Positions 40,253-60,906 of a stretch of 64,000 nucleotides of DNA are shown here, piece after piece. The position numbers were made by a program, and so were the translations under genes. Position 1 is the stretch's first letter; every line of letters starts with the position of its first letter. The stretch is from Fibrobacteria bacterium. GTDB taxonomy: Bacteria > Fibrobacterota > Fibrobacteria > UBA11236. The DNA is taken from the NCBI GenBank assembly GCA_025360005.1, contig JANYDA010000021.1:1-64000 (forward strand), written 5' to 3'. The notes under the pieces were generated by a model that was not told where the DNA came from, ran no database searches, and saw nothing but the letters and a program-made list of their open reading frames with translations.

Positions 40253-41047
40253 CTAAGGGCTTTTCCATTTGGGCGGACGCTTTTCCAGGAACGCGCGCAG
40301 GCCTTCCTGCGCCTCCCCGCTCACGCGGATTTCCGCCAGGGTGCGCACCGCCAGCGCGCCTTGCGAGCCGGGAGCCGTGCGCGTAAGGGAACGCAGGAAT
40401 GCCTTGGCGACGTGGATGGCATTGGGAGAACCCGCCAGGATGCTGCCGACCACGCGATCCACGGCCGCGGTGACGCCGTGGAATCCTTCGGCCACCTCAT
40501 GCACCAAGCCTATCCGCAAGGCCCTCTCGGCAGTGAACCTTTCCGAACTCAGGAACAGGGCGCGCGCCTGGGACTCGCCCAGCTTGCGCAATACGAAGGG
40601 CCCGATGCAGGCCGGGACCAGGCCTACGCGCACTTCCGAAAGGGAGAAGACCGCGGCGGCATCCGCCACCACGTAGTCGCAAACGCTGACCAGCCCCACG
40701 CCGCCGCCCAAAGCGAAACCGTCCACCGCGCCCACGATGGGCAGCCGGCATTGATCGAGGGCCTCGAATAATCCGTACAGGTTCTCCGCGTCCTCATAGT
40801 TTTCGCGATCGGAAAAAGCCAGGCTTTCCTTCATCCAATTCAGATCGCCTCCGCTGCAAAAGGTGCCGCCTTCGCCGCGCAAGGTGAGCACGCGCAGACT
40901 CTTGTCTGCCTCGGCGGCGCGCACCGCCTCTTTCAATTCCCGGATCAATTCCGGATTGAAGGCATTCCTGACTTGCGGGCGGTAAAGCCGGATGGACAGG
41001 ACTTCGCCCCTGGTTTCCGCTTTGATGGTCTTATAGCCGATGCTCAT
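40253..41047 (-). CDS. Enoyl-CoA hydratase/isomerase (methylglutaconyl-CoA hydratase-like)
   Basis: A 264-residue crotonase-fold enzyme. The oxyanion-hole segments are TLRGEGGTFCSGGDLNWMKE and VGAVDGFALGGGVGLVSVCD, with FSLSEVRVGLVPACIGPFVL after them. AGGACGCAGGG precedes the ATG. Adjacency to a methylcrotonyl-CoA-carboxylase-type beta subunit suggests the leucine pathway step that hydrates 3-methylglutaconyl-CoA. Other short-chain enoyl-CoA substrates cannot be excluded. Confidence 0.88.
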   Translation of the reverse strand: MSIGYKTIKAETRGEVLSIRLYRPQVRNAFNPELIRELKEAVRAAEADKSLRVLTLRGEGGTFCSGGDLNWMKESLAFSDRENYEDAENLYGLFEALDQCRLPIVGAVDGFALGGGVGLVSVCDYVVADAAAVFSLSEVRVGLVPACIGPFVLRKLGESQARALFLSSERFTAERALRIGLVHEVAEGFHGVTAAVDRVVGSILAGSPNAIHVAKAFLRSLTRTAPGSQGALAVRTLAEIRVSGEAQEGLRAFLEKRPPKWKSP

Positions 41048-41074: not shown

Positions 41075-42694
41075 CTACATCCGGAACAGACCGAAGCCGT
41101 GGCCGTTACTCCAATGGCCGAAGCGGATGGCCTCCAGGCATTGACCCAGCGCGTTGCGCGTTTCCAAGGGGCTGACGATGCCGTCGTCCCAGAGGCGCGC
41201 GGAACCGTAGTACGGCGAACCCTCTCGATCGTACGCATCCACGATGGGTTTTTCCAGCGCGGCGATTTCCTTTTCGCTCAGGGAGGCGCCCTGGGCTTTC
41301 AGCTGTTCCGCTTTGACCTGGGAAATCACCTTGGAAGCCTGATGCCCGCCCATCACGGAGATGCGCGAGTTGGGCCAGGAGAACAGGAAGCGCGGATCAT
41401 AGGCGCGGCCAGCCATGGCGTAATTGCCGGCCCCGAAGGAACCGCCCAGGATCACCGTGATCATGGGAACGCGCGTGGTGGCCACGGCGGTCACCAGCTT
41501 GGCGCCGTGCTTGGCGATTCCGCCCTCCTCGAAATGCCTTCCCACCATGAAACCTGGTATGTTCTGCAGGAACAGAAGGGGCGTTCCGCGCTTTTCGCAG
41601 AGCTGGATGAAATGCACGGCCTTGAGCGCGCCTTCGCTGAAGAGGATGCCGTTGTTGCCGATGATGCCCACCGGGAACCCCTGCACGGAGGCGAAGCCGC
41701 ATACGATTGTCTTTCCGTACAGCGGTTTGAACTCGTGGAAAAGCGAACCGTCGGAGATGCGGGCAACCACCTCGCGGACATCGAACGGGGTCCGCAAATC
41801 CTTGGGGATCAGCCCCAGCAGGTCTTCCGCTTTCACGGTAGGTTCGGCCCATGCCGGCTCGCGCGGGAACAACGCCTCGCGCTTCCAGGTGCGCGCGATG
41901 TTGGCCAACAGGCCGCGGGTGATGCGCAAGGCGTCCTGATCGTTCTCAGCCAGATAGTCGGCCACGCCGGACTTGCGGGTATGCATATCCCCGCCGCCCA
42001 GATCCTCCGAACTCACTTCTTCGCCGGTGGAGGCCTTCACCAGGGGAGGCCCGGCCAGGAAAATCGTCCCCTGGTTCCGCACGATGACGGTCTCATCGCT
42101 CATGGCCGGGATGTAGGCGCCACCCGCCGTGCAGCTCCCCATCACCACCGCTATTTGCGGGATGCCTTGCGCGCTCATGCGGGCCTGGTTGAAAAAGATG
42201 CGGCCGAAATGGAAGCGATCGGGATACACGTCCGCTTGCAGGGGCAGGAAGGCGCCGCCGCTGTCCACCAGGTAGATGCAAGGCAGATGGTTCCGCTCCG
42301 CTATTTCCTGGGCGCGCAAATGCTTTTTGACCGTCATGGGGAAATAGCTGCCGCCCTTTACGGTAGCGTCATTGGCCACGATCATGCATAACAGGCCGGA
42401 TACCTTGCCGATGCCGATGACGATGCCGGCGCCGGGCGCCGCATTGTCGTACATGTCCCAGGCCGCCAGGGAGGCCAGCTCCAGGAATTCGCAGCCGGGA
42501 TCGATAAGCATGGCGATGCGATCGCGGGCCGCCAGCTTGCCCCGGGCCGCATGTTTTTCCACCGCTTCCGGTCCGCCCCCCCCTTGGGCGATGCGCATGC
42601 GTTCCCGCAACTGGTCGAGCAGGGCCGCGTTGTGGATCACGTTTTCCCGGTACCGATCGTCCCTGTTCTCCTGTTGCGGATCATGCGGAGACAT
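41075..42694 (-). CDS. Acyl-CoA carboxylase carboxyltransferase (methylcrotonyl-CoA carboxylase beta-like)
   Basis: A 539-residue biotin-dependent carboxyltransferase. N- and C-terminal crotonase-like halves carry oxyanion loops at [19 protein letters not shown] and [40 protein letters not shown] and the [20 protein letters not shown] region are characteristic of the methylcrotonyl-CoA branch, which carboxylates 3-methylcrotonyl-CoA in leucine breakdown; geranyl-CoA carboxylase is the close alternative given the AtuA neighbours. The biotin carboxylase/carrier subunit is not in the window, so it must be encoded elsewhere. GGAG lies nine bases before the ATG. Confidence 0.9.
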
Positions 42695-42710: not shown

Positions 42711-43073
42711 CTAGGCGGGCGCGCTCCCCGGCGCCGCGGGCGGCAACATCGCCGCCAGGTTGTCCGGATCGGGCAATTGCATTTCCAATAGGGCGGTAGC
42801 CAAAGCCTTGCCTTGGGTATCCGTCCGCAAGGAATCGGAGGCGCCGCCGCCCAGTACGTTTTTAAGCACGAAGTTGAAGGCGAACAGTTTCGGCAGCGCG
42901 AACCGCTCCACTTTTTCCGGATTGAGATCGCGGAAATATTGCCGCACCAGCTCCGCCGTCACATGCGTTTCCAGAAACGCTCCGCCTGCGGCCGTGAAGG
43001 CTATCAATCCGATGTTGGCGTGGTTGCCCTTGTCGCCGCTGCGTCCATGCGCGATGTCCCCCAGGCGGATCAT
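42711..43073 (-). CDS. AtuA-like C-terminal (ferredoxin-fold) subunit
   Basis: A 120-residue protein matching the small domain that is usually fused to, or encoded beside, AtuA. MIRLGDIAHGRSGDKGNHAN is its signature start, and LPKLFAFNFVLKNVLGGGAS its end. It overlaps the preceding atuA-like gene by four bases. In many proteobacteria both parts are one polypeptide, so this is a split version. It is needed for an undetermined step linked to acyclic terpene or leucine/isovalerate use. Confidence 0.85.
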   Translation of the reverse strand: MIRLGDIAHGRSGDKGNHANIGLIAFTAAGGAFLETHVTAELVRQYFRDLNPEKVERFALPKLFAFNFVLKNVLGGGASDSLRTDTQGKALATALLEMQLPDPDNLAAMLPPAAPGSAPA

Positions 43074-44476
43074 GCTGCCAGATCCCCCGCGCCGCGCACG
43101 TAGGCCACCGGGCGCACATGATCGCGCTCCACCGTGGTGGGCCAATGACTCAGCACCTGCCTGGGCTTGGGCCGCGAACCGGCATAGCCGGAAATCCCCG
43201 CGGGACCGGAGGTGATGACGGGAGCGATTTCCCGGCAAAACCGCTCCACCGCGTTCTTATCCTTGTCCCATACGGAGAGGCGCAGCACAACTTCCTTCAA
43301 ATCCCCGGACGGGGTCTCAACGCCGGGCAGGGTGGCGCCCGCGCCCAGGATTTCCAGGTACCGTCGGCCCAAAGGCATCCCCGCTTGCTTCACCCTGTCC
43401 AGGATCATTTCACCAGTGGCCTTGGCTTTGCCGGCCGCGCCGAGTCCGCTTACCACCAGATCGCCTTTGGCTGAGAACCCGTTTTCGTACGCGCAGGAAA
43501 CCTTCAAGGTGGCTGGAGGCCTTATGCCGCGGGTGCCGGAAACCCGCACCAGATCCCTGCCCCTCTCTTCTACTTCCGTTTGCGTGAAATCCAGGGTAAC
43601 ATCCGGGGTGTGGTAACGCGCCGGATCCCCTATCTCGTACAGCAGCTGCTCCGTCACCGTTTCGCGGTTTACCATGCCCCCGGTGCCCTCCGGCTTGGTG
43701 ATGTGGCATTCCCCGGAAGCGGTGAGGATTGCGATGGGATAGCCGATATGGGCGTAGTCGGGAACGGTTTGCCAGCGCGAGAGCATCCCGCCCGTGACCT
43801 GGGCCCCGCATTCGATGAGATGGCCGGCCACGCTGGCCGCGGCCAGCTTTTCCCAATCCTGCCAACCCCACTTGAACGTATGCATGGCCGGCCCCACCGT
43901 AAGGGAAGCATCGGCCACGCGGCCGGTGATGACGATACGGGCGCCCCTGTCCAGGGCCTCGCAGATAGGGGCCGCCCCCAGATAGGCGTTGGCGCTGACC
44001 AAACCCTCGCCTTGCCTGGCCGCGGCGGCATCGAAATACGCCAGGCTGGCTTGGGAATCGAAATGCAGGAAGCGCTCCCCGGCGGCGCGCAATTCATCCA
44101 GTCTGGGCATCAAATCGTCACCGCTCACCCAGGCCACTTTTTCGCCGCCCATGCCCGCCGCCGCCAGCAGCTTCGCGGTCGCGCGCGCGCAGCCGGCCGG
44201 ATTGAGCCCGCCCGCATTGGTGACGATGCGCAGGCCGGGCCGCGCTTTCAGGATAGGTATCAGGCGCGCTACGGTAGCCGGGAAGTCGGAAACGAAACCG
44301 GCCTCCGGGTCGAGCCGCTTCTGATGGGCCAGGATGGAGAGCGTGAGTTCGGCCAGGTATTCCAAGGTCAGGAAATCCAAGGAGCCCTCTTCCGCTAGGC
44401 GGATGGGGGCATCCAGGTTGTCGCCCCAGAATCCGGCGCCATTGCCGATGCGGATGGAGTCAGGAATTCCGGACAT
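43070..44476 (-). CDS. atuA: AtuA family protein (acyclic terpene utilisation, DUF1446)
   Basis: A 468-residue protein of the AtuA family, known from citronellol/geraniol catabolism operons and common in leucine and isovalerate degradation clusters; its reaction is unproven. Family landmarks include RIGNGAGFWGDNLDAPIRLA, DFLTLEYLAE, TNAGGLNPAGCA, ITGRVADASLTVGP and WGWQDW. AGGA sits five bases before the ATG. It is translationally coupled to the small AtuA-C partner by a four-base overlap and lies between the acyl-CoA dehydrogenase and carboxyltransferase genes. Confidence 0.87.
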   Translation of the reverse strand: MSGIPDSIRIGNGAGFWGDNLDAPIRLAEEGSLDFLTLEYLAELTLSILAHQKRLDPEAGFVSDFPATVARLIPILKARPGLRIVTNAGGLNPAGCARATAKLLAAAGMGGEKVAWVSGDDLMPRLDELRAAGERFLHFDSQASLAYFDAAAARQGEGLVSANAYLGAAPICEALDRGARIVITGRVADASLTVGPAMHTFKWGWQDWEKLAAASVAGHLIECGAQVTGGMLSRWQTVPDYAHIGYPIAILTASGECHITKPEGTGGMVNRETVTEQLLYEIGDPARYHTPDVTLDFTQTEVEERGRDLVRVSGTRGIRPPATLKVSCAYENGFSAKGDLVVSGLGAAGKAKATGEMILDRVKQAGMPLGRRYLEILGAGATLPGVETPSGDLKEVVLRLSVWDKDKNAVERFCREIAPVITSGPAGISGYAGSRPKPRQVLSHWPTTVERDHVRPVAYVRGAGDLAA

Positions 44477-44509: not shown

Positions 44510-46486
44510 TCATGCGCCCACGCCGGGGAATTGCTTAACGTGTTCCTTCTTAACCGTCCGCCCCTGGCCCATGGCGTTAGGGGAGCGTTCCGGAAGCACG
44601 TAATTGGCGTTGGGCAAGGTATCCGAATAGGCGAGCGCGGCCTTGTTGGCCAATACCATCGTTTCGTCCGGATTGCTGAACAGGGCGAGCACGGCGGTGC
44701 GGTATTCATGTTCGGCCATGTCCAGGAAATGCAACCCTGCGGCGCGATCCCTTTCCCATGCGGCCCCGGAAACCCCTTGACGCAATTGGCGATCGAGCTT
44801 GGAAAGCACGCAGGCGGAAGCGTGCAGCCACATGGCCATATCGGACAGGCGCGCATGCAAGGCGCCCCGCGTGACGATCTTCTCCTGCACCTTGTAGCTT
44901 ATCTTCTTGAACTGGTAGGCGTGATCCTGGACCAAAGCCTCGTAACGGGTCACCCACGGGGCCAATTCCTGATGCAGGCCCAGCAGGCGGGGCGCGGTCT
45001 TGCGGATACCCAAGAACACCTCTCCCGCAATGGCCAGCGCGCGCGAAAGGATGGGGAAATTAAGGCTGTGGCGGATGATGCGCGCGGCGTTCGCGAACAG
45101 GGATTCCTTGCCGTTCCAGGTCAAGGCGGCTTGGATGCCCAGCATGGATTCCGCCAATTGCTTGCCGCCGTAGCTGAAGATAAAGGATTGCATCACCTCG
45201 TTGGCGCCTTCCACTATCAGGTAGATGCGCGCGTCGCGGAAGGCTCGTTCGATCTCGGTTTCGGTCATATAACCTTCGCCGCCCATGATCTGCATGGCGT
45301 CGTTGATCACGCGCCAGCCCATCTCCGAGCTGAAGACCTTGCACACCGCGGTTTCCACCATGATGTCGTTGTCGTGGCGATCGAGGATGCCGGTGGTGAA
45401 ATACAGGATGGCGTCGATGGCGTAGGTATAGGCAGCCATGCGCGCTATCTTCATCTGCACCAGTTCGAAATCGGCCAGCGGCCGCTTGAACTGGTAGCGG
45501 GTCTGCGCCCACTTGATGCTTTGATCCATGCAGGTGCGGGCCGAGCCCAACATGCCGGCGGACAAGGTACAGCGCCCGTAGTTGAGGCAGGAGAGCGCCA
45601 CTTGCAAACCCTTACCTTCCTTATGCAACAGGTTGGCTTTGGGGATGCGGGCGTTCTTGAAGCGGATGCGGGCCTGCCACGTGCCGCGGATGCCGCATTT
45701 GCTGCGGTTCTTCTGGTAGATTTCCACGCCTGCGATATCCGGCGTGCAGATGAGGGCGCTCACCGCTTCGGTGACTTTGCCGGTCTTGGCGTCCGTGAAA
45801 ATCTGCTTGGACATGACCGTGAACATGCCCGACAAGGCGCCGGAGGTGGACCATTTCTTTTCGCCATTGAGGATGTAATACTCGCCGTCTTCGCTCAGCA
45901 CGCACTTGGTTTCCTGCCCGCCCGCATCGCAACCTACGTTGGGTTCGGAAAGGCAGAAGGCGGACAGCATGTCGCCGGCCAGGCGCGGCAGCCATTTCTT
46001 TTTCTGTTCTTCATTGCCGAACAGCACCAAGGCCTTGCAGCCGATGGACTGGTGCGCGGAAACCACCACGGCCGTGGAGGCGCAATAGGAACCGATCATC
46101 TCCAAGGCGCGATTGTAGCTGGTGACGCCCAATCCCTGGCCGCCGTATTCTTTGGGGATGTTCATGCCCATCACCCCCAGGTCGAAAATCTTCTTGATGG
46201 CCCAATCCGGGATGGCCTCCTCTTGATCGATTTGCTGGCGGGGATGTTCGTTTTCCAGGTACACCTTCAGCTTGGCCAGGATGGCATCGCAGCGATCCTT
46301 TTCCTCCTTGGCCACTTCCGGATACGGGAAAGCCAGGTCTTGGCGGATATTGCCCCAGAACAGATTCTTGACGAAACCCATCTCGCCGGGCTCCGGCCCC
46401 AGCATGGCCTCCGCCTCTTCGATCATTTTGCGATCGCGGTCGGATATGCCTTTGATGTTTTTCAAATCGCCGGTTTTCTGGATCAT
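44510..46486 (-). CDS. Large acyl-CoA dehydrogenase, flavin-dependent
   Basis: A 658-residue FAD enzyme of the VLCAD-like long form. It has the N-terminal helical domain, a middle beta domain with AFCLSEPNVGCDAGGQET and WSTSGALSG, and a C-terminal helical domain with MQIMGGEGYMTETEIERAFR. Glu in IVEGANEVM is the likely catalytic base. About 150 extra C-terminal residues follow, as in mitochondrial VLCAD and ACAD9. Electrons would pass to electron-transfer flavoprotein. TAGGAGAT precedes the ATG at 46486. Substrate could be isovaleryl-CoA or longer fatty acyl-CoA; the long form favours the latter. Confidence 0.9.
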   Translation of the reverse strand: MIQKTGDLKNIKGISDRDRKMIEEAEAMLGPEPGEMGFVKNLFWGNIRQDLAFPYPEVAKEEKDRCDAILAKLKVYLENEHPRQQIDQEEAIPDWAIKKIFDLGVMGMNIPKEYGGQGLGVTSYNRALEMIGSYCASTAVVVSAHQSIGCKALVLFGNEEQKKKWLPRLAGDMLSAFCLSEPNVGCDAGGQETKCVLSEDGEYYILNGEKKWSTSGALSGMFTVMSKQIFTDAKTGKVTEAVSALICTPDIAGVEIYQKNRSKCGIRGTWQARIRFKNARIPKANLLHKEGKGLQVALSCLNYGRCTLSAGMLGSARTCMDQSIKWAQTRYQFKRPLADFELVQMKIARMAAYTYAIDAILYFTTGILDRHDNDIMVETAVCKVFSSEMGWRVINDAMQIMGGEGYMTETEIERAFRDARIYLIVEGANEVMQSFIFSYGGKQLAESMLGIQAALTWNGKESLFANAARIIRHSLNFPILSRALAIAGEVFLGIRKTAPRLLGLHQELAPWVTRYEALVQDHAYQFKKISYKVQEKIVTRGALHARLSDMAMWLHASACVLSKLDRQLRQGVSGAAWERDRAAGLHFLDMAEHEYRTAVLALFSNPDETMVLANKAALAYSDTLPNANYVLPERSPNAMGQGRTVKKEHVKQFPGVGA

Positions 46487-46610: not shown

Positions 46611-47846
46611 CTAAGCGGTGCGTTTTACCACCAATGCGGTAACGGTCTTGTCGTTGCCGCCCATGCTGACCATCATACCATGATCCTTTCCCGATTGGAC
46701 CTGGTTAGGCGCTTTTCCGGTCAGTTGCTCCAGCAAATCCACCATTTGCCGCACCCCGGTGGCCCCAACGGGATGACCGAAGCCGCATAGCCCTCCCGAC
46801 AGGTTTGTCGGCAAATTCCCGTCCGGCGCAGTGTGGCCTTCCAATACCATTCTCGTCGCTCCGCCCGCGGGCGCGAAACCCAAAGCTTCCAGTGCCAGCA
46901 TCCCGGTGATGGAAAAGCAATCGTGCAACTCCAACACGCCCACTTGGCCGGCGCTTATGCCCGCCATCTCCAACGCGGCCGCGCCGGCGCGGCCGGTATT
47001 TTCCAGGACGGTCGCATCCACGGGTGGCTTGGTGATATCGCCTTCGACGCCCTGGAATCCCGTCAACTCGATCATATCGCGGGGCCGCAGCCCCAACTTC
47101 CGCGCGCCTTCTTCGCTGGCCACCACCAGGGACGACGCGCCATCGGAAACTTTCGAGCAATCATAGAGGTTTAAGTGAGATACGAACTTACCCGCCTCCG
47201 GAGGCGTCATACCCAGGGCCAATAAATCCGGGCTGGCATTCCGGTATTCCTGGGCCTTGGGATTCTTACGCGCATTCAGGATGGCCTGCTGATACCATGC
47301 GGCCATGGCTTTGCGGGCGGCATCCTTTCCGTAACGATCCGCGTAAGCTCCCGCGCGGTCCGAAAAAATGCCGGGAAAGAAATAAGCGTGGCCTTGCTTA
47401 CGCTCCCCGTTGAAATAACCGGCGCCGGCCAGAACATCCGCGACGTATACCGCCTTCAAGATATTCTGCACCTCGAAGCCCGCTACGAAAACGGAATCGG
47501 CCATGTCCGCCAGAATGCTTTTCGCCGCCGCGGCCAAGGCCAGCCCTCCGGAACCGCAAGCGCCCTCCACGCGCATGCAGGACTTGCCCGCCAGTCCGGG
47601 AACCATCATGGGCAGGAAGCCCGGAAGGTTGCCTTGCTTCAGGAAGCGACCCGCCATGAAATTGGCCATTATGCCTTCGTCGAAATCGGGATTGGAGATT
47701 TGCGTCAAAGTCCCCTGGGCGGATTCGCGCAAGTAGGTTTCAAAACTCGGCATCGGTTTGGTGGGATGGAACTCCGGCCTTCCCGCGCCGAAACACACGG
47801 TGTTGCAGCCCGCGCCGAAGAAAATCCGTTTCCTGAGTCTACCCAT
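46611..47846 (-). CDS. Thiolase-family acetyl-CoA acyltransferase
   Basis: A 411-residue thiolase of the SCP2-like branch. The acylation cysteine is in RVEGACGSGGLALAAAAKS, the His in ELHDCFSITG, and the second catalytic cysteine/His region in GGLCGFGHPVGATG. The ATG at 47846 has GAGGG six bases upstream; a start two codons earlier is less well placed. It would cleave 3-ketoacyl-CoA to acetyl-CoA or acetoacetyl-CoA, the last step of the pathway encoded by the operon. Confidence 0.88.
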   Translation of the reverse strand: MGRLRKRIFFGAGCNTVCFGAGRPEFHPTKPMPSFETYLRESAQGTLTQISNPDFDEGIMANFMAGRFLKQGNLPGFLPMMVPGLAGKSCMRVEGACGSGGLALAAAAKSILADMADSVFVAGFEVQNILKAVYVADVLAGAGYFNGERKQGHAYFFPGIFSDRAGAYADRYGKDAARKAMAAWYQQAILNARKNPKAQEYRNASPDLLALGMTPPEAGKFVSHLNLYDCSKVSDGASSLVVASEEGARKLGLRPRDMIELTGFQGVEGDITKPPVDATVLENTGRAGAAALEMAGISAGQVGVLELHDCFSITGMLALEALGFAPAGGATRMVLEGHTAPDGNLPTNLSGGLCGFGHPVGATGVRQMVDLLEQLTGKAPNQVQSGKDHGMMVSMGGNDKTVTALVVKRTA

Positions 47847-47882
47847 GCGCATCCCTCGCTTTCTGGCCCATCCCCGCGCCCC

Positions 47883-49280
47883 TCATGGCGTCCAATCGGC
47901 GGGGCCATGCAAATGGAAAAAGCCGTTCATGAGCACTTTGGAAACATCCCCGGCGGAAGCCGCCACTCCCGTCCGCACCAAGGCCTCGCCCACGGTGTGG
48001 GAATGATCCAGGAATTCCCTGCCCAGCCTTGCGCCCAAACCTGGCGCGCGCTTGAGCGCATCCAGGTAACCGGCAAGTTTCGCTTGCTTGTTTGGGTCCT
48101 TGGCCATGGCGCTCCAGGGGGAATGCCCTGCCGGCAAAGGGCCCAGAGAGTCCACCGCCTTTCCGAAAAGGTCCGTACCCGCCAGGGTAACATAGGTGAT
48201 ACCTTTTCCGGAAGCCAGGGAAGCCGGATCCATTACCCCCGCGATCTTATTGAGCTCGTACCGGAACAAGCCGTCCTGCTGTTCCCCGGATCCCAATTGC
48301 CCGCCGCGCACGCCCGCCGCCAGCCAGGCGTCCAGATCGGCATCGGCGAATAAGGCATCACCCGCCGCTTCCGGCAGCGCGTGCTTCCGCATCACCTCCA
48401 GGATCATGCTGAACACATCCAATCCCACATAGTCGAGCAATTGGAACACGCCCATCGGCCGGATCAGAAAATCCTGCGTGGCCCGGTTCACCAGCACGAG
48501 CGCTTCCGCATCGCCGTGGAGGGCCCGCAACTCGCGGTATTTGGTAAAAGCGAACAGCAACTCGCGGATGAAATGCCCGTTCCCGATAAACCCCGCCATA
48601 TCGTTGGAGGGGACGATGATCTTGCCGAAGACCTTGCCCAACTCGCGGCCCAGGGCGATGGTTTCCGGCCGCGTCTGCGAAGCGGAGATCATCTCCACCA
48701 GCTTCTGGACGGCGGGAGGATTGTAAAAATGGAAGCCCAGTATGCGCCCATCCAGCCCGACGGATCGGTCCAGCAAGGAGATAGGGATGGAAGATGTGTT
48801 GCTCAGGAAAACCGTATCCGGCGCGCATAGACCTTTGAGACGCGCGTAGAGATCGCGTTTGAGTTCCAGGTTCTCGAACACGGCCTCGAAAACCAGGCGC
48901 GCGCCTTTCGCCCCGGCCGGATCGCTTTCGCAACGCAGTATGGACATGGCTCCGTCCACGTAAGCCTGGATGATCTCGCCGTTCTCGATCAGATCAGGGC
49001 GGTCCTGGGCCCACTCGCGCAATTTCCCGATCGACTTTTCGGCCGCCTTGAGCAATTGTCCGCGCAGGTATTCCCGCAGCCGCTTGAAAGCGGGCGCGGC
49101 ATCGGAACGGGAGTCTATCAGGACCAAATCGAACTGGCCGGATCCGGGCACGCCGTTGCCGCGCCCGTCCAGATCCGCCATGGCCTTCAAAACCACCCAG
49201 GCGATGCCGCTGCCCATCTTCCCGGCCGCGCCCAGCACCGCTACGGCGCGCATGCGTTCTTCCCATTCCGCCTTGGCCAT
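47883..49280 (-). CDS. 3-hydroxyacyl-CoA dehydrogenase
   Basis: A 465-residue NAD-dependent dehydrogenase. The Rossmann motif is AVLGAAGKMGSGIAWVVLKA. The catalytic His is in ILGFHFYNPP, and VPSNDMAGFIGNGHFIREL lies at the domain hinge. The C-terminal dimerisation domain is long and partly duplicated. The start at 49280 shares its first base with the TGA of the upstream oxidoreductase gene (TGATG), showing translational coupling. It oxidises 3-hydroxyacyl-CoA before the thiolase step. Confidence 0.88.
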   Translation of the reverse strand: MAKAEWEERMRAVAVLGAAGKMGSGIAWVVLKAMADLDGRGNGVPGSGQFDLVLIDSRSDAAPAFKRLREYLRGQLLKAAEKSIGKLREWAQDRPDLIENGEIIQAYVDGAMSILRCESDPAGAKGARLVFEAVFENLELKRDLYARLKGLCAPDTVFLSNTSSIPISLLDRSVGLDGRILGFHFYNPPAVQKLVEMISASQTRPETIALGRELGKVFGKIIVPSNDMAGFIGNGHFIRELLFAFTKYRELRALHGDAEALVLVNRATQDFLIRPMGVFQLLDYVGLDVFSMILEVMRKHALPEAAGDALFADADLDAWLAAGVRGGQLGSGEQQDGLFRYELNKIAGVMDPASLASGKGITYVTLAGTDLFGKAVDSLGPLPAGHSPWSAMAKDPNKQAKLAGYLDALKRAPGLGARLGREFLDHSHTVGEALVRTGVAASAGDVSKVLMNGFFHLHGPADWTP

Positions 49281-52200
49281 CAATGCCCCGCTTCTTTGGG
49301 GATTTCCCATTTGATAAGGCGCGCCAGCGTCGCGCGGTGGATGGAGAACATGTTCCTGAGCATGGCGGAATGGAAACGCCAGAAACCCATCTCCCGGGCC
49401 AAATGCTTCCACTCGCCGCGCAGCAGCCAATAATCGCGCTCCAGGATGGTCTCATCATGCGCCGAATGGGCCATCATTTTCTGGATGCCGTAATACTTGC
49501 GCAGCCTGTCCTTCCATTGCGCGCGCGTGAAGGTCCACGGGAACCAATCGATGGTGGTTCGTTTTTGCAGGTACAGGGTCTTGCCGGCGCGGTTCTTCAC
49601 CTCCTGGTAGCGCAGCGAGTACAGGTTGTAGAAATGCGCGTCCAGAGCCATCTTCTGCGCGCCCATGCTGCGGGCCAGGTTGATCCCTTGCTCCAGGCAA
49701 CTGAAATGCATGAGCAAGAGGAAAGGCTTCCTTTCCTCCCGCACCACCTGGTGGCCCCATTTGATCTTGGCGTACAGATCGGACAGGTGCACGGTGGAGG
49801 CCACCGCTCCCTGCACGCAATATTTTTCCGCGTACTTTAGGAAGTTCACCGGCTCCCGCCGCGACACATGCCCATCCCGCGTCTTGGCGCCCGTCATGGT
49901 GGTGGAAGTCGCCTGCCCGCCCGTATTCCCCAGCGTTTGGTTGATGACCACGATATGGAAGATGGGATCCTGCTGGTGCAAAGCGTCTTCCACCGATCGC
50001 AATCCCTGCATGAACCCGCCATCCCCGGAAATGGACACCACGATATCACCCTTGTCCACGTTATGCGCCAACCCGGAAGCCACGCCGTGCGCGGTCTCGA
50101 AGGCGATGCGGATATATGGCAGATTCCAGATGGAAGTCCGGTTCATCCCGGAAATGACCGTGCCGCAACCGTCCTGCTCGCTCACGTAGATCTTGCCCTT
50201 ATCCTTTTGGATATAGGCCAGGTAATTGAACACGGTGCGGAAGATGTTGATCTGCCCGCAACCGGCGCAAGCCATGTCCCCGGCCGTCAAGGGACCCTTG
50301 CCGTTCAGGGTGATGTACATGCTTTGCACTTGGTTGATGGTGGGGTGGAAGCGGAACATGGTCTGGTACAGGGACCTCTTCAGGGCGTAGGCCTGCTCCA
50401 GGAACCGGAGTTTGCCCGGATTGCTCAAAGCCCGCAACAAATGGGGAGGCAGGATGCGGGCCTGGAATTGCTCCAGGCTTTCCACCGCCGGCGCATCCGA
50501 TTCGCCCGCCACGGCCGTCCAATCCCCGCTGTCCATGGCCGCAGCCCGCGATCGATAGGCCAGGAATCCGGCCACGATGGCTTCCCGGTTCTTCTGCGTC
50601 AACAGCAGCTTGGCTTCTTTTTCGATGCCCTGCACGCCGCCCAAGGCATCCAGCAGCGCCAGCAACTCCTCCGCATCATCCACTCCCATATTGGCCAGCA
50701 TGGCGCCGCACAGGATCATGTTGGTCCGCGCCGAGCTGCCGTACAGACGGCGCGAAATGCGTTTGGCCGGGATCAGGATCATGCGGGCGCCCGCAGGCAG
50801 CATGGACCGGTACTTTTCCGATGCGGCTTCCTCGCCGTCCAGGATCAGCATGCCGCCCGGGCACAATTGCTTCAGCATCGGCTCCAGAGACACATCCCCG
50901 TCGAAGGCCATGATGGTGTCCGCCATGATGATATCGGACCAATCGCGGATGGGCTCGTCGGATTGCTTGATGCTCAGGGTGATGCCGCCGCCGCGCTGCA
51001 AAGCCCCGAAGCCGGCCATGGACAAGGCATATCGGCCGCGGATGCTGGCCACGCCGGTGAATATGGAATTGAGCTGCAACAGGCCTTGCCCGCCCTTGCC
51101 CATCACGGCGATTTGCCTTACACCCGGCTCCATCAGGGGCACGTCGAAAGCCGCGTCTGTTTGGGGATACGGGTTGCCGCGCGTTCCAAGTACGAAGGAA
51201 TGGCCGGGAGCGGATTCCTTGAGCCAGACATGCGTGCGGGTATCGGCCCTCCCCGAACTCACGTCCGCCAGCATGCGGAACAGAGTCACCCAGTAGGGAA
51301 TGGTCACCGCGCGACCGCCCAGGCCGATGGTTGCTGCCATCAAGTACGGCGGGCTTTCCAGGTCGTACAGGGCGGAACGTACCTCCTGCGCCAGGATGCC
51401 GCCCCCCGATCGGCCGGACCAATTGTTGTATTCCACCACGGCCACGGCCTTGCATCCATCCAGGCACTGGCGGAGTTCCGACGCGGGGAAGGGACGGTAG
51501 AGATTGATGGAAACCACGCCGCAGCGCACGCCCTGCTCCCGGAGGCGCGCGGCCACGTATTCCGCGGAGGACATGTCCGGATCGTTCAGCCCCACGATGC
51601 AGAAGTCCATGCCACCGGTTTCCGGGAAGCGCCCCACCTTGCGGATGGCCGGACGTCCGGTGAATCGCGCCAGCTCCGACGCCGCCTGATCGAAATTCCT
51701 GCCCGCCTGCAACAGCACTTCATCGATGGCCTGGCGCTGTTCCGCGTAGCGGCTGTCCATATCGAGAATGCCCACCGAACGGCTCTCGTCGTCAGCGAAA
51801 ACGAAAGGATTTTTGGGCCCTTCCAGGAAGGCGTCCGCATCCGCATCGGTCAGCTTATCAAGATGGCCTTGGCGCTCGGAGCTCAGCGTATGCGTTTCGA
51901 CGAAGCCCTTGATCACCAGGCGTCCCGGGATCCAAACCCCTTGCGACTCCATCACCTTCAGGAGCAGCAACGCCTTGTCGTAGTCATCCTGGATGCCGCG
52001 GCCGAACAGGATGATCTCGCCCGTATCCGAAGTGCGGAAAGTGGTGGTGTGATCGGGCTTGGTGGTGGTGCCGGGTGATAAGGCCCGCGTCAGCTCCAGC
52101 ATGAAGATGGGCAGGTGCAGGCCGGGATTGATGTTCATGAATTCATAGATCTGCGCCAGGCTCTGGGACCCTTGCGCCATCAAGGAGCGCTTGCCGCGCA

Positions 52201-53071
52201 CGGCCGAACCCGTAAGCCAAGCATAGCCGGATTCCTCCGAGAGGCAAGGCCGGAACTGCAGGTGATGCGGAGCGTCCGCGGCCTGGTGGCCGGCGCGATC
52301 CTCTATCTGCTTGAGCAGGGAAGTATTGGGCGTGATGGGGAAGATGGACACGCTGTCGAACCTGGCCTGGAAGGCGAAGTCGGCGAACATGACGGAACCG
52401 TTGAATACCTTGGGCTGCGCGCCGCCCATGACCTGGGGTTGATGCGCGGCCAAAAGCCTGCCGGCCTCCTGGATCCAACGCTGTACCCATTGCTCGCCTT
52501 CCGCGGAAGGCGCCTTGAAAATGGCCGCCACTTCCGTGGCCGTTATCTTCCTGCCCTTGAACCTGTCCACGTCCACCAGCTCCGCGGGCACGAAATGGAT
52601 AGCCCCGGTGGGGCAGGCCGAAGCGCATACGAAACAGCCTTTGCAATGGTTGTAGTTGGTGGCGCCCTTCACCACCGCATGCGATTCCGTCTTGCCGTCC
52701 AGGTTGATTCCCGGAAGCAGGTTGAAGGTCTTTGCGAAGAGATGGAAGACCGGTTCCACTTCCCTCTCCGAAACTTCATAGCCGATGGAGTGGTGCGGGC
52801 AGGCCACCACGCAATGGAGGCAATCGATGCATTGGGTGCCCAGCGTGACGGGTATGAAATTCTTATCGGTCCAGTTCCGCTCCCCGGCATTGCCGCCCTT
52901 CACATGCGTGCCCTGGCCGGCGAAGTCCTGGAAGTTCTCGAGTCGGATCAGATGATCCCCCAGCACCTGGTTGGGAGCTTCGTTGATGGAGGATAAATGC
53001 GTGTATTCGGAAGCGTTCAATCCCCGGGCGGGACGCTTGCCGGAAGAGCCATTGCCGGGATCCGCTATCAT
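49280..53071 (-). CDS. Fused 2-oxoacid:ferredoxin oxidoreductase with N-terminal ferredoxin domain
   Basis: A 1263-residue single-chain enzyme of the pyruvate/2-oxoacid:ferredoxin oxidoreductase superfamily. Two [4Fe-4S] sites come first: CIDCLHCVVACP near residue 81 and CKGCFVCASACP near 143. The alpha-type domain follows (SIFPITPNTSLLKQIEDRAG), then the gamma domain (AVMGKGGQGLLQLNSIF near 657), then the beta domain with CAGCGQINIFR near 935 and thiamine-binding GDGGFMQGLRSVEDAL near 1013. Standard fused enzymes carry the ferredoxin domain after gamma, so this order is unusual. The position at the head of an acyl-CoA operon suggests branched-chain 2-oxoacids as substrates. AAAGGG precedes the ATG at 53071. 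Confidence 0.88.
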   Translation of the reverse strand: MIADPGNGSSGKRPARGLNASEYTHLSSINEAPNQVLGDHLIRLENFQDFAGQGTHVKGGNAGERNWTDKNFIPVTLGTQCIDCLHCVVACPHHSIGYEVSEREVEPVFHLFAKTFNLLPGINLDGKTESHAVVKGATNYNHCKGCFVCASACPTGAIHFVPAELVDVDRFKGRKITATEVAAIFKAPSAEGEQWVQRWIQEAGRLLAAHQPQVMGGAQPKVFNGSVMFADFAFQARFDSVSIFPITPNTSLLKQIEDRAGHQAADAPHHLQFRPCLSEESGYAWLTGSAVRGKRSLMAQGSQSLAQIYEFMNINPGLHLPIFMLELTRALSPGTTTKPDHTTTFRTSDTGEIILFGRGIQDDYDKALLLLKVMESQGVWIPGRLVIKGFVETHTLSSERQGHLDKLTDADADAFLEGPKNPFVFADDESRSVGILDMDSRYAEQRQAIDEVLLQAGRNFDQAASELARFTGRPAIRKVGRFPETGGMDFCIVGLNDPDMSSAEYVAARLREQGVRCGVVSINLYRPFPASELRQCLDGCKAVAVVEYNNWSGRSGGGILAQEVRSALYDLESPPYLMAATIGLGGRAVTIPYWVTLFRMLADVSSGRADTRTHVWLKESAPGHSFVLGTRGNPYPQTDAAFDVPLMEPGVRQIAVMGKGGQGLLQLNSIFTGVASIRGRYALSMAGFGALQRGGGITLSIKQSDEPIRDWSDIIMADTIMAFDGDVSLEPMLKQLCPGGMLILDGEEAASEKYRSMLPAGARMILIPAKRISRRLYGSSARTNMILCGAMLANMGVDDAEELLALLDALGGVQGIEKEAKLLLTQKNREAIVAGFLAYRSRAAAMDSGDWTAVAGESDAPAVESLEQFQARILPPHLLRALSNPGKLRFLEQAYALKRSLYQTMFRFHPTINQVQSMYITLNGKGPLTAGDMACAGCGQINIFRTVFNYLAYIQKDKGKIYVSEQDGCGTVISGMNRTSIWNLPYIRIAFETAHGVASGLAHNVDKGDIVVSISGDGGFMQGLRSVEDALHQQDPIFHIVVINQTLGNTGGQATSTTMTGAKTRDGHVSRREPVNFLKYAEKYCVQGAVASTVHLSDLYAKIKWGHQVVREERKPFLLLMHFSCLEQGINLARSMGAQKMALDAHFYNLYSLRYQEVKNRAGKTLYLQKRTTIDWFPWTFTRAQWKDRLRKYYGIQKMMAHSAHDETILERDYWLLRGEWKHLAREMGFWRFHSAMLRNMFSIHRATLARLIKWEIPKEAGH

Positions 53072-54358: not shown

Positions 54359-55210
54359 CTAGATGCTGCCCAGCAAGTACATCTTGCCGGAAGGCTGCGG
54401 CAGTCCACCCTTGGGCTCCAGCGTAATGGCGAAAGCGTTGATGCGGCTCCGATCGGATTCTACCAGCTGATCGATCTTGTACAGCTCCCCGCCTTCGCGG
54501 TTGCCTTTCACCTGGAATACGCCCGCGTCCATGGGCTTCTTGTCCCGAATCACCCACAACTGGTAATCCTTGTCCGAAGGTTGCGCGGGGAGGTTGGAGA
54601 TGTGCAGGATGGCCTTCTTGTGGATGGGATCCCAGATGATCTTGCCGTAGCCTGCCGGATCGGCCGCCTGGCCATTCATCACCACCATCTGCATGTTGCT
54701 GGACTTGAGCACTTCCAGCATGGCGGTTTGCTGGGAAAGGGAATCCTCCAGGGCCCGGATGCGGACGCGGCTTTCCGAATAGGCCGCCTGGATGCGGCCC
54801 ATACCGCTCCGCAGGGAGGCGCTGTAGGCGAGTAACACCAAGGTTACGATGGCGAACCCGGCCGCCGCGGTGGCGGCAATGCGGAAGGGCATGATCCAGG
54901 CAATGCGGGTTTTGCCGGCGGCAGTTCCGGCAACCGTCCGTTTAGCGGCCGGAGCGGCGGTGGAGCGCGGCTCGGCATCGCCTTGCACGCGAGCCATGAG
55001 CTTATCCAGGACATCGGGGGAAAGCGGCGCTTCCTGCGCCGCCAGGGAAAGATTGGCGGCCATCAAGGCGGCTTGGGAATACGCGGCGAGCATTTCCGGC
55101 GTCGCGGAGACGAACGCGCTTTGGAAGCGGGCCAAATCCTCCCCATCCAGCAGGCCCAGTGCATGGGCCGGACAGAGATCGAGGAATTCCCGAATATCCA
55201 TGGGCTTCAT
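54359..55210 (-). CDS. RskA-type anti-sigma factor
   Basis: A 283-residue membrane anti-sigma factor. The cytoplasmic N-terminal part (residues 1-100, DIREFLDLCPAHALGLLDGE) would bind the sigma factor. A membrane helix spans about 108-132 (FRIAATAAAGFAIVTLVLLA). A short coiled coil and a periplasmic C-terminal RskA domain follow (ILHISNLPAQPSDKDYQLWV, FAITLEPKGGLPQPSG). It overlaps the sigma gene by four bases. Regulated proteolysis of such proteins releases the sigma factor; the signal is unknown. Confidence 0.88.
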   Translation of the reverse strand: MKPMDIREFLDLCPAHALGLLDGEDLARFQSAFVSATPEMLAAYSQAALMAANLSLAAQEAPLSPDVLDKLMARVQGDAEPRSTAAPAAKRTVAGTAAGKTRIAWIMPFRIAATAAAGFAIVTLVLLAYSASLRSGMGRIQAAYSESRVRIRALEDSLSQQTAMLEVLKSSNMQMVVMNGQAADPAGYGKIIWDPIHKKAILHISNLPAQPSDKDYQLWVIRDKKPMDAGVFQVKGNREGGELYKIDQLVESDRSRINAFAITLEPKGGLPQPSGKMYLLGSI

Positions 55211-55767
55211 AGCCTATCCTTGAGAAGGCTTTGCAAAGCCTTCATGCCGTCCCGGACGCGCGACTTGACCGTGCCCAGGGGCAGGTTGAGGCTTGCGGCG
55301 ATCTCCGTTTGCGTTCGCCCTTCGAAGTAAGCCGTTTCCAAGACGAGCCTTTGCTCGGGCGATATCCGCTCCAATGCCGACTTGACCAGGTCCGCCCTTT
55401 CCGAAAGTACTACTTGATCCAGTTGGTCCTCGCGATTGAAGCCCTGCAACTCTTCCACTTCTTGTTGCGATTGCGCATTCCCTTGCCTATAGCCCTTGGA
55501 GCGGATGCGGTCGATGGCGCGGTTGCGGGCCATGGTCAGCAGCCAGGTATATACGGACCCCTTGGAAATATCGTAACTGGGAGCCCTCTCCCACACCTGG
55601 TGAAAAATCTCGCAGAGGATTTCTTCGGCATCCTCTTTCCGCTTTACGATGGAGAAGATGACGTTATATAGGGCCCGGGAGAACCGGCCGTAGAGATCCC
55701 TGAGAGCGCGGGAATCCCGTTTGGCTATCCTCTCCATCAGAATGGGAATTTCCGGGGGCAAGGTCAT
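55207..55767 (-). CDS. ECF-type RNA polymerase sigma factor
   Basis: A 186-residue ECF sigma factor. Region 2 contains LYGRFSRALYNVIFSIVKRK, EDAEEILCEIFHQVWERA and VYTWLLTMARNRAIDRIRSK. Region 4 contains ISPEQRLVLETAYFEGRTQT and LPLGTVKSRVRDGMKALQ. The ATG at 55767 has TTGGA nine bases upstream; ATG at 55776 is an alternative. Paired with the RskA-like anti-sigma gene, resembling SigK/RskA modules that respond to envelope or redox stress. About 300 bases upstream (55768-56096) show no further gene. Confidence 0.92.
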   Translation of the reverse strand: MTLPPEIPILMERIAKRDSRALRDLYGRFSRALYNVIFSIVKRKEDAEEILCEIFHQVWERAPSYDISKGSVYTWLLTMARNRAIDRIRSKGYRQGNAQSQQEVEELQGFNREDQLDQVVLSERADLVKSALERISPEQRLVLETAYFEGRTQTEIAASLNLPLGTVKSRVRDGMKALQSLLKDRL

Positions 55768-56096
55768 GTAGGCCATTCCAACGGCCGTTCGGCAACCGGA
55801 TTCATGGAAGAGACGTTCCCATGGGCGCGAATGCGGGGCACCCGTTTCCGGGCGCCCGGGTTCCCGGCCGGGAGGTTCCCGATCCCATTCCGTCCGCGTC
55901 GCCGCTTGCAATGTCGCTGCGCCCATGCATTTCCCCGTAGATAGATACGCAGGGATCGGGGATACGGATGGATAGGCGGCAAGGCGGATGAGTCATCGCT
56001 AATGAAAACTAAATAAATCCGGGACGCTGAATCCGCAAGCATCGCGTCCATCCCGACGGAAAGCTTGGAAGGAAGTTGAAGACATAACGCCCCGCA

Positions 56097-57266: not shown

Positions 57267-57674
57267 AATTCTGCCGCTCTTTGTTTCAAACAAACTTTCC
57301 AGCCCCCTACACGGAAGCCTCCCGTGCGGCAATCACTACCCAAAAAGAGCAAAACGGATATGCCATGAATCATTCTCCATCTACGTAGCAAATAGTCCTT
57401 CGGACTCATGCCCTTGCCTGCCGCAATAATCCGGTTTTACCTCGGAAATGAGCGCCCAGCCTCTTTACGCGCCATGGTTTTTTGCGACCGGGGCTGCGTC
57501 TTAGGACTCCCATACGCCAACGCTATTTTTCCTTGCACGAAACCCTATATACGGGTAAAGTTCCCTCAGGTTCAGGTCTTTCACCATGGAATATTTTCAC
57601 CTTGGATTTATTATAAGGGAGAGCTTGTTGGGGATTATCCGTAACTACGGAGAGAGGTGGGGAGAATGGTTTCG
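57267..57674. other. Intergenic promoter region of the first GSDH gene
   Basis: These 408 bases separate the esterase gene from the divergent sorbosone-dehydrogenase-like gene. No gene recognised. TTGCAC near 57532 followed after 17 bases by TAAAGT could be a plus-strand promoter. The GGTGGGGAGA ribosome binding site lies at the right end. Confidence 0.4.
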
Positions 57675-59354
57675 ATGAAGAAAACTGCGGCTTTCGCAAT
57701 GCTGACGGCTAGCCTGGCCGCTACGTCGGCGCACGCTGTGTTGAGCTGGCCTAATTGCAAGGATCTCGCGAACTCGGATTTCAAGGCCGTGGTACTCTCG
57801 GACCGGGCGGGCGATAAGACCGCTGAGCCGATGAAGATGGCTTTCGATCTGCTCGCGAATAAAGGCGAAGACGCCAAGGGCAAGGTGGATGTCTATTTCA
57901 CCGAGCGCTTGGGAAAGGTGCGCAAGTTCGATTCCAAGACCGGCAAGGTGCTGACCCTGGCGACCTTCACCTTGAACATCAGCGCGACCAACTCCTCGGA
58001 CGGGATGTTGGGCATAGCCTTGGATCCCGCTTTCAAGACCAACAACTTCGTGTACATCTACTATACCTATGTCGGCGGTACGGAGAAGAGCTGGCGCATT
58101 TCGCGTTTCACCTTGAACGCGGATCACACGGTATTGGATCCCGCTACGGAAGCCATCCTGCTGAAAGTTCCCATCCTCTCCGGCTCCAAGCATCCCGGCG
58201 GGGCGCTCCAGTTCGACGCCTATGGCGATCTCTGGATCACCACCGGCAACGACTACAAGTTGGGCAGCGACTTTCCCATGTACAGTTCTCCGAACACGAA
58301 CGATTTGCGCGGCAAGATCCTCCGCATCCATCCCAATGCCAATGCTAATGGCACCAGCTATACCATCCCGGAAGGCAATCTCTTTAAACCGGGAACGGCC
58401 AATACGCGCCCTGAGATCTACATCATGGGCAACCGCAATCCTTACACCTTGTCACTGGATCCGGTACGCCGCTGGGCGGTATGGGGAGATGTGGGCCCTG
58501 ACAATCTCAACGCCAATGGCGATCCGATGAACCAAGGCGGCCCCGAAAAAACCGAGGAGTACGATTTGGCCAAGGCCCCGGGAAACTCCGGCTATCCTTT
58601 CTTTTCCGGGGACTTCGCCACCAAGCCGGGCTCGGATGCTTCCGGTCCCGTAATGCCGGCCAACTATAACTGGGAAGGCGCCCAGCCGGGTTTGACCAAG
58701 CTGCCGCCGGTGTTCGCGCCCATCTATCCATACAAAAAATCCTGCGCCATCACCGGTCCTATCTACCGCTATGACGGGGACCTCGTCTCCTCCATCAAAT
58801 TCCCGCCCCACTTCACGCGCAAGTGGCTGGTCACGGATTTCAACGGCGACGGAAACAAGATCACGGCCTTCACGCTCAACGACGACGGCACCAAGATCAC
58901 GGCCCAGGAAAATGTCATCGGTATCCCTTTGCATGGACCCCTGGACATGCAAACCGGTCCGGATGGGGCCCTTTACGTCAACAATTACGATGGCTACCGC
59001 ACCAGCGGGCCCAACACCGGCATCATCCGTATCGAGTACACCGGGGATTGCCATCCCGCGGAACCCAAACTCGAAACGGTCCCCACCACGGCGTTCCGCC
59101 CCTCGCGGCCGGAAATGGCTTTCTCCGGACCGCGCGTAGATGTTACTCGCTCTTCTTCCGGAATCTCCGTAGCGCTGGCCACGGAGGGCGCATTCACCCT
59201 TGATGTGCGCGATCTGATGGGCCGCCCGGTGGCGTCCCGTAACGCGCAAGGTTCGGCACCGGTCTCCCTGGCCGAAGTCCGCAATCCCGGCATTTACTTC
59301 CTCAACATTAAGAGCGCGGCCGGCGTCCAGATCATCAAGATCGTTCGCGACTAA
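57675..59354 (+). CDS. Secreted glucose/sorbosone dehydrogenase-like protein with sorting domain
   Basis: A 559-residue exported six-bladed propeller of the PQQ-dependent sugar dehydrogenase family. The ATG at 57675 opens a signal peptide (MKKTAAFAMLTASLAATSAH) and has GGGGAG upstream. Typical segments are DGMLGIALDPAFKTNNFVYI, HPGGALQFDAYGDLWITTGN, RGKILRIHP and YIMGNRNPYTLSLDP. The catalytic His expected near the front is not obvious. The C-terminal 70 residues (VRDLMGRPVASRNAQGSAPV to FLNIKSAAGVQIIKIVRD) match a type IX-like C-terminal sorting domain. Soluble aldose dehydrogenation is the family role. Confidence 0.87.
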   Translation: MKKTAAFAMLTASLAATSAHAVLSWPNCKDLANSDFKAVVLSDRAGDKTAEPMKMAFDLLANKGEDAKGKVDVYFTERLGKVRKFDSKTGKVLTLATFTLNISATNSSDGMLGIALDPAFKTNNFVYIYYTYVGGTEKSWRISRFTLNADHTVLDPATEAILLKVPILSGSKHPGGALQFDAYGDLWITTGNDYKLGSDFPMYSSPNTNDLRGKILRIHPNANANGTSYTIPEGNLFKPGTANTRPEIYIMGNRNPYTLSLDPVRRWAVWGDVGPDNLNANGDPMNQGGPEKTEEYDLAKAPGNSGYPFFSGDFATKPGSDASGPVMPANYNWEGAQPGLTKLPPVFAPIYPYKKSCAITGPIYRYDGDLVSSIKFPPHFTRKWLVTDFNGDGNKITAFTLNDDGTKITAQENVIGIPLHGPLDMQTGPDGALYVNNYDGYRTSGPNTGIIRIEYTGDCHPAEPKLETVPTTAFRPSRPEMAFSGPRVDVTRSSSGISVALATEGAFTLDVRDLMGRPVASRNAQGSAPVSLAEVRNPGIYFLNIKSAAGVQIIKIVRD

Positions 59355-59760: not shown

Positions 59761-60630
59761 ATGAATATGACAACTTTAACCGTTCCCGAAAGCCAGGACC
59801 GTTTGAATCGGATGCAATGGGAAGCCGAAGGCGGAGTCCGGCTGGACCTGCTTGGCTTCGTCAGCTTTCCGCCTACCTATCGCGGAGCCTTGCATTCCCA
59901 TCCATTCTGGGAACTCGTTTACATAGGAAGCGGACAAGGATTCCTCCATCACGGTGAAAACGTGCGCGCCTGCGAAGCCGAAGAGATCCTGCTGGTGCGC
60001 CCCGGCGAAAAGCACCAATTCCGCGCCGGCGATTCGCAAACTTTCGACCAGCTGTACCTGGGGTTTTCCTTCGACTTTGCCATGCCGGACGTATTGAGCC
60101 AATCTCCGCCCCGAGTGCTGCCGGATAGTCCTCTGACCGGACTCATCCGGTCCGAGTTGCGCGACAACCTGAATCGTCTCAAGGAGAAAAAAAGCAGCCA
60201 CTCCCTGGAGTCGATCCGCGGCCGGTTGCTGTCGGTAGTCAGCAAGGTGATCGGCATCCTCATTGCGCCGGAAGCCAGGGCCAATGATCCTCACCAACGC
60301 CAGAACGAATCCATGGTCCAGTTGGCGAAAGAATACTTGCAAGCCAACCTCAACAGCAAGCTGGGAGTTCCCGAATTGGCCCGCCACTTTTGCCTGAGCC
60401 CGCAATACTTCGGGGAAATCTTCAAGAAGGACACCGGGCTAAGCATCAAAGAATACCAGCGCAATTGCAGGATGATCAAAGCCATGGAACTTTTGCAAGA
60501 AAGCAATCTCTCCATCACCGAGATCTCCGACTCCATCGGCTTGGATGATCTGGCCTATTTCTCCCGGATTTTCAAAAAGCAGTACGGCATTCCACCCAGC
60601 AAGGTGCGCTACCATCTGATCCGGAGTTGA
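59761..60630 (+). CDS. AraC-family transcriptional regulator with cupin sensor
   Basis: A 289-residue regulator. The N-terminal cupin-like domain (residues about 30-110, HSHPFWELVYIGSGQGFLHH, then VRPGEKHQFRAG) is likely to bind a sugar. Two helix-turn-helix units make up the C-terminal 100 residues (LGVPELARHFCLSPQYFGEI and LSITEISDSIGLDDLAYFSR, FKKQYGIPPSKVR). It sits between two homologous sorbosone-dehydrogenase-like genes and probably activates one or both. A second ATG two codons downstream is the other possible start. Confidence 0.9.
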   Translation: MNMTTLTVPESQDRLNRMQWEAEGGVRLDLLGFVSFPPTYRGALHSHPFWELVYIGSGQGFLHHGENVRACEAEEILLVRPGEKHQFRAGDSQTFDQLYLGFSFDFAMPDVLSQSPPRVLPDSPLTGLIRSELRDNLNRLKEKKSSHSLESIRGRLLSVVSKVIGILIAPEARANDPHQRQNESMVQLAKEYLQANLNSKLGVPELARHFCLSPQYFGEIFKKDTGLSIKEYQRNCRMIKAMELLQESNLSITEISDSIGLDDLAYFSRIFKKQYGIPPSKVRYHLIRS

Positions 60631-60906
60631 ATTCCATTTGCGGGCGGAAAAACCGGTGAGGGAATGCTTGGTAAGTCCAACTTTTACCTTTCTTTTTACA
60701 AAACTCCCTCATCGACCGGGTTTAATTTCGGTAAAGGAAACAATGCGTCCGAACCCTATTCCATTACATCCCCAGATTCTCGTTGCAAGCCGGTCATTCC
60801 GGATTTGTCCCGCGCCTCAAACCGGGAACATCTTTATGAATGAAGCAAGTGAAGTTGGGGCCAGCGTATGGACGGGATTATGTTCGCAGAAAAGGAAAAC
60901 CTTCCC

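Follow-up and report, generated by a model that had tools for sequence, protein, structure and literature searches.

A single-chain 2-oxoacid:ferredoxin oxidoreductase with its ferredoxin domain at the N-terminus heads an acyl-CoA degradation operon in an uncultured Fibrobacterota bacterium

An uncultured Fibrobacterota bacterium encodes a 2-oxoacid:ferredoxin oxidoreductase (OFOR) as a single chain of 1263 amino acids, in which the ferredoxin (Fd) domain precedes the catalytic core in the order Fd-alpha-gamma-beta. Its gene occupies the minus strand at 53071..49280 of the window (the whole 64,000-nucleotide stretch of DNA that was analysed), at the head of a run of acyl-CoA degradation genes. 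This domain order was not met among the families and genomes searched here, and no description of it was found in the literature searched. Both the order and the deep divergence of the protein appear to be new. We give a probability of about one half to the reading that it is a working, self-contained and deep-branching OFOR, which converts a 2-oxoacid other than pyruvate to an acyl-CoA for the beta-oxidation enzymes of its own operon.

The reading frame starts with an ATG at 53071, preceded by GGAAAGGG, and its TGA ends at 49280. A Pfam scan bore out the domain order and coordinates given in the initial annotation, with every domain above its gathering cut-off. First comes a 2x[4Fe-4S] ferredoxin domain (Fer4_7, residues 80-157, 52601..52834; 29.6 bits, cut-off 27), with CxxCxxCxxxC motifs at 81 and 143 and 51 residues between them. 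The alpha part consists of domain I (POR_N, residues 234-405, 51857..52372, 59.4 bits), which carries E279, R329 and, within FPITP, T247, and domain II (PFOR_II, residues 500-591, 51299..51574, 61.0 bits). Gamma domain III (POR, residues 660-835, 50567..51094, 73.2 bits) has GKGGQG at 658-663. A linker with no Pfam match (residues 841-915, 50327..50551) is poorly conserved, at 63-71% identity between species, and lies where NifJ has its EKR and Fd domains. Beta domain VI (residues 916-1160, 49592..50326) is 89-96% identical between species. It includes the TPP_enzyme_C match (residues 985-1106, 54.8 bits), GDG at 1016-1018, N1044, N1049 and the proximal-cluster cysteines C935, C938, C969 and C1125. 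A C-terminal extension (residues 1161-1263, 49283..49591) has no Pfam match. Superfamily domains I, II, III and VI are also all above the cut-off in four other orthologues (P0003-P0006), with an identical domain order. An AlphaFold2 model of residues 1-1190, built from four sequences, had a mean pLDDT of 30.3 and a pTM of 0.26 and was not used.

The order had been described as unlike that of the usual fused enzyme, and comparison agrees. NifJ-type PFORs (TIGR02176; DaPFOR, 1b0p; MtPFOR, 6cin) are likewise single chains with an alpha-gamma-beta core, three cluster motifs, an Fd domain with a long spacer, an NTGGQ motif and a cysteine motif in the C-terminal half. However, their order is alpha-gamma-EKR-Fd-beta, and the CxxCxxCxxxC pair lies mid-chain, about 700-800 residues in, in all five NifJ-type enzymes fetched. 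In contrast, the Fibrobacterota protein has its Fd domain at the N-terminus and no match to the EKR domain in the Pfam scan. The four-subunit POR/VOR enzymes (PorGDAB; 9bt4, NF040682, NF006232) are encoded by separate genes, usually ordered gamma-delta-alpha-beta in the fetched loci, and Por subunits were also separate genes in the neighbourhoods fetched around alpha matches. Oxalate oxidoreductase (5c4i) has an alpha subunit that aligns with the protein end to end (E 1.3e-23), but the oxalate YPIRP motif, as given in PMC5020499, is replaced by FPITP. According to the same source, KGOR and other two-subunit OFORs (TIGR03710; StOFOR) have gamma ahead of alpha and lack an internal Fd domain, unlike the protein described here.

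How widespread is this enzyme? The Fd-first chain was found in five of the six genomes of the genus and nowhere else, or 5/436 genomes in total (G000-G435), a sample in which the big phyla are thinly covered and which does not prove absence outside the genus. A protein search of 167 genomes of the phylum gave some match in 115 and a full-length match in five only, all in the six-genome genus. The same five full-length chains, and no others, came from a profile search of 391 genomes of the phylum and many other phyla, which scored just the two top first-look candidates per genome; its other matches (E <= 1e-30, best 3.7e-51) were mostly to the alpha region alone. Small searches within phyla around G302, G240, G209, G354, G373 and G190 (4, 40, 2, 2, 5 and 3 genomes) added 45 new genomes under stricter limits, two of the six covering the same two genomes, and gave no match. 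A pattern scan of the genome collection returned three loci, which are those of three of the same five genomes. No single locus in eight plasmid records covered 80% of the query, and no relative was found in viral contigs. In G360 (L054:2175-5308) there is a PorA-like frame of 910-955 amino acids by open-frame count, but its excess length is likely to be spurious, and the matches to Fd, gamma and beta at this locus fall in other frames. Among the five orthologues dN is 0.07-0.14 against a dS of 0.67-0.99, and the protein is therefore under purifying selection.

The catalytic residues are also conserved. T247, E279, R329, GDG, N1044, N1049 and C935/C938/C969 are invariant in the alignment of all five orthologues, and almost every one of the 24 Por and five NifJ rows shares them; N1044 is Thr in NifJ. 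The Tyr of the YPITP motif is replaced by Phe, as it is in 5/24 Por rows. C1125 stands opposite a NifJ cysteine in HMMER alignments and was left unaligned by MAFFT. The cysteines, E64, I123, D963 and T991 are labelled by DaPFOR numbering in our alignments. PMC5020499 describes Thr31 and Arg114 of DaPFOR as a carboxylate clamp and Leu121, Ala219, Ile843, Asn996 and Met1202 as forming its narrow pyruvate pocket, and has Glu294 of the StOFOR alpha subunit, GDG and Asn118 of beta serving TPP and magnesium. Measured against these residues, the clamp (T247, R329), E279, GDG 1016-1018, N1044 and N1049 are retained, and V972 occupies the position of DaPFOR Ile843. We conclude that this OFOR is real, conserved and, judged by its residues, catalytically equipped.

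Its place among known OFORs is less simple. Among the families listed (25 of 62), the best NCBIfam scores of the alpha region are to PorA (140.9 bits, cut-off 550), VorA (132 bits, cut-off 646) and PRK09622 (129 bits), and the alpha subunit of 9bt4 matches with an E of 1.2e-28. The NifJ model gives 70.6 bits (cut-off 911), the KGOR model TIGR03710 gives 56.4 (cut-off 482.75) and the oxalate oxidoreductase model 88 (cut-off 500). The protein is far under every curated OFOR cut-off among the families listed. In all three trees (alpha, 43 rows; concatenated, 34 and 24 rows) the five orthologues form a clade with 100/100 support outside NifJ, itself a 100/100 clade, and do not fall inside the pyruvate enzymes. 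Their stem measures 4.6-6.0 changes per column against 3.5-4.8 for NifJ. Because it scores below all listed cut-offs and its clade lies outside NifJ, the protein is not a mis-annotated pyruvate enzyme.

Nevertheless, it might be a pyruvate enzyme in a broader sense, namely a NifJ-type PFOR rearranged for use at low oxygen, with neighbours that are merely co-regulated. Besides the shared core, the Fd cluster spacing of 51 residues is near the 45-46 of NifJ (5/5) and far from the 18-28 of PorD (18/18). The beta domain has NTGGQ as in NifJ, the second G being Ile or Val in 22/24 Por rows, and a C-x-x-x-G-I motif is also shared with NifJ. An AU test did not reject a single clade of these proteins and NifJ (p 0.247 and 0.213). 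A PF01855 search of the organism's own genome brought up no NifJ; its sole matches were the protein itself, the alpha subunit of KGOR and a sub-cut-off acetolactate synthase. Against this stand the monophyly of NifJ without the Fibrobacterota proteins, the low NifJ score, a different pocket loop (see below) and the co-existence of both enzymes in G156. The genome also encodes a PDH E1 alpha (TIGR03182, 423 bits, cut-off 394), in addition to an 829-aa protein with an E1-beta-like half, an OGDH-sized E1 and KGOR, and pyruvate therefore has another route. A pyruvate enzyme is thus an unlikely reading. As for ancestry, the Fd cluster spacing and NTGGQ lean towards NifJ, and the alpha scores lean towards Por. 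Perhaps the five proteins make up a class of their own, which arose when Fd, alpha, gamma and beta fused independently in that order, or when a NifJ-type domain V moved to the N-terminus and EKR was lost, and which has adapted to a new 2-oxoacid, passed on to a beta-oxidation operon. We offer this tentatively.

What might that 2-oxoacid be? The loop past R329 reads SPGTTTKPDH in 5/5 orthologues and differs from those of Por and NifJ. Position 335 is Thr here, mostly Ile or Trp in Por and Leu in NifJ; position 337 is Thr in 5/5 orthologues and Ile in 23/24 Por and 5/5 NifJ rows; position 338 is Lys here, His, Tyr, Phe or Leu in Por and Phe in NifJ. In the alignments this hints at a changed pocket, polar rather than greasy. 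Since the loop residues differ from those of POR and NifJ and the genome has PDH, a substrate other than pyruvate is likely.

One candidate is a 2-oxoacid that is either dicarboxylic or long-chain, such as a product of alpha-oxidation, and that feeds a FadE-like fatty-acid beta-oxidation operon. The segment TTTKPDH resembles LPTKTEQ in the alpha subunit of the genome's own KGOR, and such a T-K-x-acid loop could indicate an acidic substrate. In addition, the best listed match of the operon's acyl-CoA dehydrogenase is FadE. However, the KGOR model scores just 56 bits against 483, and the genome already has KGOR and an OGDH-sized E1, which makes this substrate improbable. Another candidate is an aryl-pyruvate, as in IOR-like enzymes. 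General membership of the OFORs and the operon would agree with it, but the top alpha scores are to the PorA and VorA models and no IOR model appears among the 25 of 62 families listed, so that we regard it as very unlikely.

The operon is the main guide to the product. The initial annotation had placed the gene at the head of an acyl-CoA degradation operon, coupled to a hydroxyacyl-CoA dehydrogenase gene, and both points hold. Another seven ORFs come after it on that strand, spaced by -4 to 124 bases. The first, a 465-aa 3-hydroxyacyl-CoA dehydrogenase (HADH; 47883..49280, 3HCDH_N 123 bits), has a start codon that overlaps the OFOR stop by one base (TGATG). Next are a 413-aa thiolase of the Thiolase_C_1 type by Pfam (46611..47852), a 658-aa acyl-CoA dehydrogenase (ACAD; 44510..46486), for which the best NCBIfam match listed is Bacillus FadE (280 bits, cut-off 600), and an AtuA family protein (43070..44476, PF07287 476 bits). 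A 120-aa ORF that overlaps the AtuA gene by four bases (42712..43073) is presumably the AtuA-associated small domain. A 539-aa acyl-CoA carboxylase carboxyltransferase (41075..42694; PF01039 493 bits, TIGR01117 308 bits, below cut-off) and an enoyl-CoA hydratase family protein (40253..41047), for which PRK07468 and gamma-carboxygeranoyl-CoA hydratase are the nearest models, both scoring below cut-off, complete the series. Because a search upstream of the OFOR gene found no sigma-70 promoter-like site, the start of the operon is taken from the gene layout. By eye, an anti-sigma-like ORF (54359..55210) and an ECF sigma factor-like ORF (55207..55926) lie upstream on the same strand, with ORFs similar to such a pair upstream in L004 as well, and these may regulate the operon. 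Farther along the window, again by eye, two secreted proteins related to each other (57657..59354 and 60868..62502) resemble glucose/sorbosone dehydrogenases and carry C-terminal sorting-type tails; between them lies an AraC-type regulator-like ORF (59761..60630).

This arrangement is conserved within the genus. HADH follows OFOR in all five genomes that carry it (window, L004, L006, L056, L057). The order OFOR-HADH-thiolase-ACAD-AtuA is seen in four (window, L006, L056, L057), the genes past HADH in L004 being unresolved by the ORF filter. The carboxyltransferase follows in three of the five, and the next gene in L057 is oppositely oriented. In the sixth genome of the genus, G155, neither OFOR nor HADH was detected at the thresholds used and a NifJ-type PFOR is present. 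The HADH type itself reaches further, to 15/391 genomes, ten of them outside the genus. In these ten loci (L073-L082, several phyla) the long HADH of about 450 aa adjoins a Thiolase_C_1-like thiolase in seven, and none has a single-chain Fd-first OFOR nearby. Two ORFs after HADH in L077 are, from their N-termini, presumably a methylisocitrate lyase and a methylcitrate synthase. L078 and L079 have a NifJ-type gene near HADH with one gene between, and the same kind of gene, which we assume to be dihydroorotate-dehydrogenase-like, follows NifJ in L118. In other words, HADH-thiolase looks like a wider-spread module to which OFOR was added in this genus.

The content of the operon suggests that the OFOR product is an acyl-CoA for beta-oxidation. 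The substrate had been proposed to be a branched-chain or aryl 2-oxoacid rather than pyruvate. Its non-pyruvate part agrees with the presence of PDH, the altered loop and the position outside the NifJ clade; its aryl part found no evidence; and its branched-chain part is no more than our leading guess. For a branched-chain substrate speak the acyl-CoA operon, the separate PDH, and a carboxyltransferase and hydratase that resemble methylcrotonyl- (MCC) and geranyl-CoA carboxylation genes (models below cut-off). Neutral or against it are the sub-cut-off FadE match and the polar loop (T335, T336, T337, K338), which is no obvious fit for an aliphatic side chain. The standard leucine (Liu) route is unsupported, as HMG-CoA lyase was over the NF004283 cut-off in none of the six genus genomes (3/14 control genomes were over it). 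An E1-type match falls in a frame of 815-920 aa in at least five of the six, and these proteins might already carry out branched-chain oxidation.

We can sketch how an enzyme for a non-pyruvate 2-oxoacid would work. TPP would sit between the alpha and beta domains, where the 2-oxoacid would be decarboxylated. From the proximal [4Fe-4S] cluster in beta, electrons would pass to the pair of clusters in the N-terminal Fd domain, which might dock where the internal domain V of NifJ does, and on to an external carrier. CoA on the gamma domain would accept the acyl group, and the acyl-CoA may then be channelled to the dehydrogenase, hydratase, HADH and thiolase of the same operon.

OFORs are enzymes of ancient origin, built from modules. 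The single-chain forms compared here, those of NifJ, have the Fd module between gamma and beta, and its position at the front would test how freely the domain through which electrons exit can be rewired. The enzyme also offers a single gene for carboxylation or acyl-CoA chemistry. If the proposed function is true, ferredoxin-linked oxidation of a 2-oxoacid would run alongside pyruvate dehydrogenase in one organism.
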